A DNA stretch of 64,000 nt from positions 2,728,001-2,792,000 of the forward strand of contig NZ_CP036426.1 in NCBI RefSeq assembly GCF_007752535.1, written 5' to 3'. This DNA is from Tautonia plasticadhaerens. Its GTDB lineage: Bacteria; Planctomycetota; Planctomycetia; Isosphaerales; Isosphaeraceae. Every line of letters starts with the position of its first letter. The stretch's first letter is position 1. The translations under genes and the position numbers were made by a program. The notes under the pieces were generated by a model. The model saw only the letters and a program-made list of their open reading frames with translations, was not told where the DNA came from and made no database searches. Positions 45,520 through 47,233 of this stretch are shown one piece after another.

Positions 45520-46533
45520 TCAGAGGGACCGGTCCACGGCCTCGGCCACCCGACGGCACTCGGCCATCATCCGCTCGAAGGCCGAGGGGGTGATCGTCTG
45601 GGCGCCGTCGCTCATGGCGTGCTCGGGGTCCTCGTGGACCTCGACCATCAGGCCGTCGGCCCCGGCGGCGATCGCCGCCCTCGCCATGGGGGGGACCAGC
45701 GGCGCCTTGCCGGTGCCGTGGGACGGGTCGACGACCACCGGCAGGTGCGTCTTCGCCTGCAGGTAGGGGACCGACGCCAGCGGCAGCGTGAACCTCGTGT
45801 GCTCCTCGAAGGTGCGGACCCCCCGCTCGCAGAGGATCACCTGGTCATTGCCGCGATCGAGGATGTACTCGGCCGCCAGCAGGAACTCCTCCATCGTCGA
45901 GGCCATGCCGCGCTTCAGGAAGGCGGGCTTGCCCGACTCGCCGACGGCCGTCAGCAGCTGGTAGTTCTGCATGTTCCGGGCGCCGATCTGGAGCACGTCG
46001 GCGTACTCGGCCACCACCGCCACGTGCTCCGGCGCCATCACCTCGGTGACGATCGCCAGGCCCGTCTCGTCCCGGGCGGTCGCCAGCATCTTCAGGCCGT
46101 CGACCTTGTGCCCCTGGAAGCTGTAGGGGCTGGTCCGGGGCTTGTAGGCCCCCCCCCGCAGGCCGGTGGCGCCCAGGGCCTTGAGCGTCCTGGCGATCGA
46201 GACGATCTGCCCCTCGCTCTCCACCGAGCAGGGCCCGGCGATCACGCCGATCCTCTTGCCGCCGATCTCCAGCGAGCGGGCCCGGACGACCGTCCGCTCC
46301 GCCTTCAGCTCCGACGAGGCCCGCTTGTAGGGGGCCATGATCGGCAGGACCTTCACCACGCCGGGGCTCGGCTCCAGGGTCTCGACCAGCCCCGGCCGCT
46401 CCTCGCCGATGGCGGCGATCACCGTCTGGTGCCGGCCGACGATCACCTGGGGCTGGAGGCCCAGCTGCGAGATGTGGTCCCGGACGTGGGAAATCTGGTC
46501 CTCGGTCGCGTCCGGCTTCATGACGACAATCAC
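45520..46533 (-). CDS. aroF: 3-deoxy-7-phosphoheptulonate synthase (DAHP synthase), type I-beta
   Basis: DAHP synthase condenses phosphoenolpyruvate and erythrose-4-phosphate, the first step of the shikimate pathway. A GTG at 46533 with GAGGGCGG upstream gives 337 residues, the typical length of the Thermotoga-type enzyme with an N-terminal ferredoxin-like regulatory domain (residues 1-70). Catalytic-region motifs are AGPCSVES, GGAYKPRTSPYSFQG, QIGARNMQNY, LKRGM, CERGVRTFE and VDPSHGTG. The N-terminal domain mediates feedback by Tyr or Phe in relatives. Upstream lies an attenuator-like leader with an aromatic-rich peptide. Confidence 0.96.
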   Translation of the reverse strand: MIVVMKPDATEDQISHVRDHISQLGLQPQVIVGRHQTVIAAIGEERPGLVETLEPSPGVVKVLPIMAPYKRASSELKAERTVVRARSLEIGGKRIGVIAGPCSVESEGQIVSIARTLKALGATGLRGGAYKPRTSPYSFQGHKVDGLKMLATARDETGLAIVTEVMAPEHVAVVAEYADVLQIGARNMQNYQLLTAVGESGKPAFLKRGMASTMEEFLLAAEYILDRGNDQVILCERGVRTFEEHTRFTLPLASVPYLQAKTHLPVVVDPSHGTGKAPLVPPMARAAIAAGADGLMVEVHEDPEHAMSDGAQTITPSAFERMMAECRRVAEAVDRSL

Positions 46534-46655: not shown

Positions 46656-46691
46656 AAAAAAGCCCCGAGACCTTCGCAGGTCTCGGGGCTT
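46656..46691 (-). terminator. Intrinsic terminator (attenuator) in the aroF leader
   Basis: A perfect 13-bp stem, AAGCCCCGAGACC (46691-46679) with GGTCTCGGGGCTT (46672-46660), encloses a TGCGAA loop. A run of six T bases (46661-46656) ends the structure on the minus strand, the same strand as aroF. It lies 122 bases upstream of the aroF GTG and 31 bases downstream of the leader-peptide stop codon, so it would terminate transcription before aroF. Confidence 0.9.
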
Positions 46692-46722: not shown

Positions 46723-46848
46723 TCACAATCCCGTACGTGCCCGGCGACCTGCGGCCGTCCGCTCGGTAAACGAACGGCCCCACCACCGATACCCGAAGGT
46801 AAAGGAGAAGGGGTAGCGGCCGGGGCTCGCGGCGGGCCGATCCAACAT
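46723..46848 (-). CDS. Aromatic-rich leader peptide of aroF
   Basis: An ATG at 46848 preceded by CTGGAGACGA encodes 41 residues, ending in TGA at 46723. Residues 12-27 read YPFSFTFGYRWWGRSF: two Tyr, four Phe and two Trp in 16 positions. The peptide has no signal or domain and is too short for most gene finders. Its stop codon lies 31 bases before the intrinsic terminator upstream of aroF. The likely role is a ribosome-stalling sensor of charged aromatic tRNAs. This is inferred from the classical trp/phe attenuator pattern. Confidence 0.85.
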   Translation of the reverse strand: MLDRPAASPGRYPFSFTFGYRWWGRSFTERTAAGRRARTGL

Positions 46849-46925: not shown

Positions 46926-46953
46926 GCTCGGGCCCGGCGCCCCGGGCCCGAGC
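46926..46953 (-). other. Perfect 12-bp GC hairpin in the aroF leader (possible upstream terminator)
   Basis: GCTCGGGCCCGG pairs perfectly with CCGGGCCCGAGC around GGCG, followed on the minus strand by ACCCTCTCTCTCGTTCT. The pyrimidine tail is not a clean T-tract, so termination may be partial. It separates the 11-codon ORF from the aromatic leader peptide. Confidence 0.5.
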
Positions 46954-47000
46954 GACCCACCCGCCGCATGGGCCGGCGGGGCATCGGAAGATGCGGCTGC

Positions 47001-47019
47001 CCGACGGGCAACCCGTCGG
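47001..47019 (-). other. Hairpin directly after the 11-codon ORF
   Basis: CCGACGGG-TTG-CCCGTCGG is a perfect 8-bp stem beginning seven bases after the stop codon of the 11-codon ORF. Further small hairpins follow at 46981-46994 (GCATC/GATGC) and 46960-46980 (CCCGCCG/CGGCGGG). The cluster suggests a structured RNA. Confidence 0.5.
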
Positions 47020-47025
47020 CTGCCG

Positions 47026-47061
47026 TTAGGCGAGCCGCCTCTGGTTGTCGCTGCTACACAC
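47026..47061 (-). CDS. 11-codon ORF with an ultra-strong Shine-Dalgarno in the aroF leader
   Basis: GTG at 47061 begins a reading frame that encodes MCSSDNQRRLA and stops at TAA (47028-47026). The preceding bases 47077-47063 read GAAAGGAGGTGATCC, a 15-base perfect complement of the 3' end of 16S rRNA, with seven bases between GGAGG and GTG. No family is known to me. It may be a regulatory uORF; its link to aromatic metabolism is not evident from the codons, which include one Cys and two Ser but no aromatic residue. Confidence 0.55.
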   Translation of the reverse strand: MCSSDNQRRLA

Positions 47062-47062
47062 A

Positions 47063-47077
47063 GGATCACCTCCTTTC
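47063..47077 (-). promoter_or_regulatory. 15-base perfect Shine-Dalgarno
   Basis: GAAAGGAGGTGATCC is fully complementary to the canonical 16S rRNA tail GGATCACCTCCTTTC. Most genes in this window have 4-7 base sites, so this is exceptional. It precedes the 11-codon ORF at the correct distance. Confidence 0.75.
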
Positions 47078-47204
47078 AAAACCGGTCCCCCCTGTTCCCG
47101 CGGGAGTCCAGCCTCGGACGGGTCAGGGCTCCAGTTTGCCGCGCCACGTTCACGCGGCCCGTAGAGGCCGACCCCGCGTGTGCTCGCGAAGGGCCGACAC
47201 GGAT

Positions 47205-47233
47205 ACGATATCCCCCGGGTGGGGTCGAATCAA
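47205..47233 (-). promoter_or_regulatory. Candidate sigma-70 promoter for the aroF leader transcript
   Basis: On the minus strand TTGATT (47228-47233) and TATCGT (47205-47210) are separated by 17 bases. The -35 box overlaps the last bases of the spondin gene. A start near 47198 would give a leader of about 660 bases before aroF. I found no better promoter closer to the aromatic leader peptide. Confidence 0.5.

Follow-up and report, generated by a model that had tools for sequence, protein, structure and literature searches.

In leader-peptide attenuators of the trp and ilv type, a short ORF precedes alternative hairpins and a terminator. The planctomycete RNA that we describe here, which lies in a 64,000-nt stretch of the Tautonia plasticadhaerens genome (the window), likewise has a short ORF and then alternative hairpins and a terminator. 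It differs from these attenuators in having no run of regulatory codons, in its Shine-Dalgarno (SD) sequence of 13–15 nt, and in apparently standing alone in many families. The peptide encoded in the window, MCSSDNQRRLA, and its relatives contain no aromatic runs (a few have a single F, Y or W), and a same-strand position directly upstream of a biosynthetic gene was found in the Isosphaeraceae (the family of the window's genus, hereafter the family) and not in the other families tested.

Searched against Rfam 15 at the gathering score, the window gave no match, and 15 relatives matched only unrelated tRNA. The nearest family is the Caulobacter sRNA CC2171 (RF01867), which is named in tables of PMC11701678 and PMC5596092; Caulobacter leader ORFs are treated in PMC4117421. 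The CC2171 consensus opens with a full SD and GUG, as the window RNA does. It scores 28.9 bits in the window and 31.5 in one relative from another family (L148) against a cut-off of 75, reaches that cut-off in none of 45 family genomes, and gives weak matches in 6/14 control genomes, for example Bacillus, one of them above the cut-off. Since the score is well below the cut-off and the resemblance is mostly that of the SD, we rejected homology and treat CC2171 as an analogue. CC2171-like units are also present on alphaproteobacterial plasmids (L110–L114 and L117), with a full or near-full SD, a mini-ORF mostly beginning MSHC, and a terminator-like hairpin. These copies resemble the planctomycete RNA in those three elements and in lacking a common downstream gene; they differ in their MS(H/N)C... 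peptides, mostly about 24 aa long, and in that no counterparts of the P1 and P2 hairpins described below were seen.

Extended SD sites and a uORF, rbfL, which acts on rbf translation, have been reported in Staphylococcus aureus (PMC13009471). The likeness lies in the extended SD-aSD helix and in the GUG-started short leader ORF with a regulatory effect; the difference is that rbfL is a leader acting on rbf translation, and the excerpted text of that paper describes no comparable family of structured RNAs. The Rhodopirellula-1 motif is likewise a candidate structured RNA, listed for Proteobacteria and Planctomycetes in a table row that gives no Rfam number (PMC2864571). We also considered tmRNA (RF00023) and rejected it: ARAGORN finds none in the window, and the tmRNA of this genome lies elsewhere. 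Among the matches listed in a search of titles and abstract openings of open-licence papers, none describes this RNA.

The SD site and the RNA around it

The elements of the RNA are arranged in the order promoter, P0, P1, P2, SD, an ORF of 10–18 codons, a stem around the stop codon and a terminator-like hairpin. In the window they are as follows.

47228–47233, minus strand: -35 element TTGATT, in a TTGA block conserved in the 5' alignment of relatives
47205–47210, minus strand: -10 element TATCGT, 17 nt from the -35, in a conserved TA.A.T block
47160–47198, minus strand: P0, putative 5' end of the RNA, from the duplex calculation and minimum-energy fold
47138–47160, minus strand: P1 hairpin, loop with ACG; for 7/7 pairs, some sequence has both sides changed
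47088–47131, minus strand: P2, long hairpin with the near-invariant loop CGAGGCUGGACUCC, from alignment and covariation
47063–47077, minus strand: SD, complementary to the whole 16S 3' tail, from window and genome motif search and 16S comparison
47026–47061, minus strand: mini-ORF, GTG to TAA, 11 codons, MCSSDNQRRLA, from translation and relatives
47033–47042, minus strand: strand s and a weak second SD-like site within the ORF, AGAGGCGGCT, -6.6 kcal/mol, not above shuffles
47012–47017, minus strand: GACGGG box, 11 nt past the first stop-codon base, from the spacing in relatives
46993–47002, minus strand: strand c, GGGCAGCCGC, able to form a stem with s that encloses the stop codon, from pairing in relatives
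46926–46953, minus strand: terminator-like hairpin T1, T tail weak in the window, from comparison and fold

The initial annotation had read a 15-base perfect SD, closely followed by an 11-codon GTG frame, from the letters of the window, and both observations hold. The SD reads GAAAGGAGGTGATCC, with no mismatches and no other exact copy in the window. The 13-mer AAAGGAGGTGATC occurs four times in the 9.4 Mb genome (the reversed control pattern does not occur); three of these are 16S 3' ends in antisense, and the fourth is this site. Read on the rRNA strand, the 16S genes terminate in CCTGCGGTTGGATCACCTCCTTTC, so that the SD is the exact 15-base complement of the 16S tail of this very organism. 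Beyond this match the flanks of the site do not resemble 16S, which rules out an rRNA fragment. Seven nucleotides separate AGGAGG from the GTG start (47061–47059), and the frame runs to a TAA at 47028–47026; its translation, VCSSDNQRRLA*, becomes MCSSDNQRRLA when the initiator V is read as M.

The objection that the site might lie in untranscribed DNA fails, since a promoter is conserved upstream of the SD. A generic sigma-70 scan found none there, and the promoter is visible in the alignment of relatives only; where the window has TATCGT, many relatives have TATAGT or TATACT. At the other end, the tail of T1 is T-rich in several relatives (e.g. L006, L012, L013, L031).

Sequence comparison supports the hairpins. 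Across 34 family sequences, 96.7% of P1/P2 cells are paired, as opposed to 85.9% in shuffled and at most 49.6% in slid versions, and changes on both sides are seen at 14/18 pairs, against no more than 8 pairs in the slid versions. (L016, which has an insertion, was omitted from A1 and A2, and three more close relatives from A2.) The predicted fold of the window RNA lies 5.5 sd below that of dinucleotide shuffles (z -5.5). It is thus well supported by sequence comparison that the SD site forms the core of a conserved, structured RNA that carries a translated-type mini-ORF, and is not merely part of a frame.

Distribution and conservation

A covariance model built from 31 family sequences (R1) matches 42/45 Isosphaeraceae genomes, including all 26 near-complete ones, with one match per genome except in G014, where a weak second copy sits directly beside the first (G014:C250:26424-26753). 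R1 also matches 22/392 sampled Planctomycetota genomes. After the model was rebuilt with newly found sequences (R2), it matched 65/392, once each; 18 non-family sequences found with R1 went into R2 and hence match it by construction. All 43 loci that were matched by R2 and not by R1 were inspected. One, L225, is an antisense 16S end and was dropped. The other 42 have an SD of 10–13/13 bases (scored as the best match within the stretch), a start close behind, and 10–15 codons, or 18 in L187. The element is thus present in at least 64/392 Planctomycetota genomes, and since stricter filters were applied, the family and phylum counts are lower bounds. In 25 genomes of other phyla the sole R2 match was marginal (E 0.09). 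An earlier pattern search found the element in 4/148 genomes, a count that its too narrow spacer makes no measure of absence. By these model matches and alignments, it is a structured RNA family spread across Planctomycetota, as a rule in single copy per genome; in many planctomycete genomes it would be an additional RNA gene that has apparently escaped annotation.

For the frame itself, 123 extracted elements were reduced below 93% identity to 68 distinct RNAs, which also served for the anti-SD, second-SD, s:c and 5'-masking tests. Of these, 32 are R2 matches without an ORF-length filter, and the other 36 had been preselected for an ORF of 7–17 codons and the box G(A/G)CGGG. Outside the 68 stand L187 (18 codons), L189 (12 codons, box unmatched) and L158, where the nearest ATG gives a longer frame and an overlapping GTG gives 12 codons (by eye). 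The extraction pattern also missed seven distinct family sequences (L011, L015, L018, L019, L035, L066, L095); in an added check, all 29 distinct family elements had frames of 10–11 codons.

The frame ends after 10–15 codons in 68/68 RNAs, including 32/32 that were unselected for the ORF, while the other two reading frames give 9–16 codons in 4/68 and 3/68. Starts are GTG (50), ATG (14) or TTG (4). Because the stops vary as well (TAA 34, TAG 19, TGA 15), it is the stop itself that is kept and not a fixed triplet. AAAGGAGGTGATC is matched at 12–13/13 positions in 61/68 RNAs, its SD core having been required by part of the search patterns. A G(A/G)CGG(G/A) box follows the stop in 66/68, and in 30/32 of those unselected for it, at 6–15 nt after the first stop base; 33 of the 66 have it at 11 nt, 20 of these being family members. 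Eleven nucleotides past the stop is about as far as a ribosome holding the stop codon in its A site would extend. Motif and frame therefore recur in relatives, neither absent nor frame-broken, which supports the initial annotation's view of a ribosome-loading ORF.

Comparison of 35 non-identical sequences, the window's included, showed ORF length varying by whole codons. The peptides include MCSDNQRRLA, MCSSDNQRRLA, MCSENQGRLA, MICDNQRRLA, MSLCDNQRRPY, MRIEDQRWSS, MNHDNQRWLP and similar ones. Between families the peptide is poorly conserved, unlike the start, length and stop of its frame. This pattern points to the ribosome's own presence on the RNA as what carries the function.

A possible ribosome-operated switch

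Both ends of the mini-ORF can take part in pairing. A segment of P0, CACACGCGGGGTCGGCCTC, can pair with the SD and start codon; in the window this duplex has an energy of -28.9 kcal/mol (z -4.3), and the same pairing is present in the minimum-energy fold. Masking by the 5' end reaches p<=0.05 in 8/23 family RNAs vs 1/45 outside the family, with z values of -4.2 in L031 and -5.1 in L085. In the genus of the window, the SD and start are predicted to be masked by the RNA's own 5' end. Other partners are seen elsewhere. A 3' anti-SD ranks <=5 of 100 in 11/68 RNAs (2/68 for the upstream control), and an internal anti-SD beyond the stop stem is good in some RNAs (e.g. L160, L167, L209, L216) but was rejected as a general feature. 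Pairing of the start region with the 3' part has p<=0.05 in 0/23 family and 6/45 other RNAs. These calculations support SD masking in some lineages, with partners that would differ by lineage, and many RNAs are non-significant. Masking of this kind would explain the need for so strong an SD.

At the stop codon, the stretch of the ORF that pairs best with the anti-SD ends 5–9 nt ahead of the stop in 62/68 RNAs. Outside the family this second SD-like site averages -9.5 kcal/mol (n=45) and beats 90% of base shuffles in 27/45; 22/23 family RNAs, among them that of the window, have a weak version (-5.9 to -6.6 kcal/mol) that is not above shuffles. The site is suggestive only, because it overlaps strand s, and pairing of that strand alone could explain it. 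Strand s consists of the last codons, and strand c usually lies 20–31 nt beyond the stop. Their pairing has p<=0.05 in 22/68 RNAs (4/23 family, 18/45 other) and is achieved by very different sequences; the window's own s:c pairing is not above shuffles (p 0.59). Both s and c can alternatively pair with the strand immediately 3' of the stop, so alternative folds exist.

As the best reading of these features, we infer that a held ribosome would operate the RNA. A 30S subunit would compete with the folding of the RNA itself for the very strong SD and bind there; the ribosome would translate the mini-ORF and halt at its stop, with the second SD-like site behind it and a hairpin ahead; and, so placed, it would open the s:c stem and alter the fold. 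The peptide would be of little importance, the presence of the ribosome being the signal or the purpose. Many species would appear to make the RNA free-standing, and in the window's lineage it would stand at the head of the transcript region of aroF, with the aromatic attenuator as an independent unit behind it. We put forward such a ribosome-operated switch, built on a structured RNA family, tentatively, its chances falling a little short of even.

A wider proposal, possible though on the unlikely side, is that this is a new, phylum-wide class of free-standing RNAs that sense or store ribosomes, with a maximal SD at the start and a second SD-like site holding the ribosome at the stop. Ribosome availability, or termination and recycling, would then set fold and activity, rather than an amino acid or ligand, and the RNA would have been recruited into the aroF leader region in Isosphaeraceae. 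Regulation through the ribosome's own presence on the RNA would be an unusual logic. The RNA also offers a concrete test object for the joint action of strong SD pairing, SD-like pausing and termination.

aroF and the competing explanations

An alternative to the ribosome-operated switch, in line with the 16S-tail titration among the initial annotation's suggestions, is that the RNA acts as a decoy or sponge, binding the 16S tail and tying up 30S subunits, with the ORF incidental. The near-complete SD match in 61/68 RNAs (the core partly preselected) would suit such a role, as would the promoter conserved in the family and the hairpin with a T-rich tail that follows 14/16 RNAs of other families (by eye). 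We consider it unlikely, however, since mere tail binding would need no conserved start, frame and stop, and since the element is kept at a single copy per genome with rare exception.

The site has also been regarded as basically an aroF leader, and this concerns the region downstream of T1.

46723–46848, minus strand: aromatic leader peptide MLDRPAASPGRYPFSFTFGYRWWGRSFTERTAAGRRARTGL, from ORF reading
46660–46691, minus strand: terminator of the aromatic attenuator, T-rich, from a terminator scan
45520–46533, minus strand: aroF (DAHP synthase), from the ORF and comparison with relatives

The gene is presumably aroF, named from its likeness to the DAHP synthase family; by comparison with relatives its start is probably the GTG at 46533, an ATG lying at 46521. 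The leader peptide contains YPFSFTFGYRWW, with Y, F and W codons, and similar peptides are found in many relatives. Positions 46848–46660 (minus strand) thus look like a separate, classical aromatic attenuator of aroF downstream of the structured RNA, which agrees with the earlier suggestion that the mini-ORF is distinct from the aromatic leader peptide. Loci were collected with the aroF product, taking the best 80 of 562 stretches encoding a relative. Upstream of aroF, the SD element recurs with the same frame in Isosphaeraceae-type loci and is absent in more distant ones. Three more distant planctomycetes (L033, L034, L036) encode a short aromatic peptide (such as FGFAGFFYFGWY) just upstream of aroF; the SD element pattern was not matched upstream of aroF in these.

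Could translation of the mini-ORF control read-through of T1 into aroF in cis? Within the family, aroF lies downstream of the RNA in 27/30 loci, the contig ending within about 0.6 kb in the other three. In L019, L023 and L027, no more than about 50 nt separate T1, with its T tract, from the aroF start, which leaves little room for a promoter and makes it probable that aroF is read through there from the RNA's promoter. L031 has a promoter-like TTGAGA-18-TAGGAT after its T-rich T1, so that there the RNA would be a separate unit. Against control of aroF as the general function, no aroF match was found in 20 loci of other families (L148-L167), and in 11 of those genomes each aroF-like gene is either separated from the RNA by some 70 kb or more or located on a different contig. 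Judged with a simple ORF rule, the next downstream ORF in 12 fetched loci is convergent in 8, co-directional in 3 and unclear in 1. The mini-ORF moreover has no aromatic codon repeats, and the T1 tail in the window is weak. Outside the Isosphaeraceae, in the families tested, the element mostly looks like a standalone RNA gene unlinked to aroF; the view that it is basically an aroF leader is not supported, and we find the attenuator explanation distinctly unlikely.

That the product of 10–18 aa is itself functional would be in keeping with the conserved translation signals, with a within-family pN/pS of 0.63 (18 frames), a possible sign of mild peptide constraint, and with a short basic core that recurs near the C-terminus (e.g. 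NQRR, SRRGG, KRRW). The peptides differ strongly between families, however, and the core that they share falls on RNA strand s, so a micropeptide gene is decidedly improbable. A chance match or stray rRNA fragment has next to no chance of being correct: one R2 match, L225, is indeed an antisense 16S end, but here the flanks are unlike 16S, the hairpins covary, and conservation refutes it.

One further feature concerns the loop of P1, upstream of the SD. In L148, L149, L157 and L158 it reads CGACGGG or UGACGGG, as in the box after the stop, so the same recognition hairpin may be present twice in RNAs with this match.
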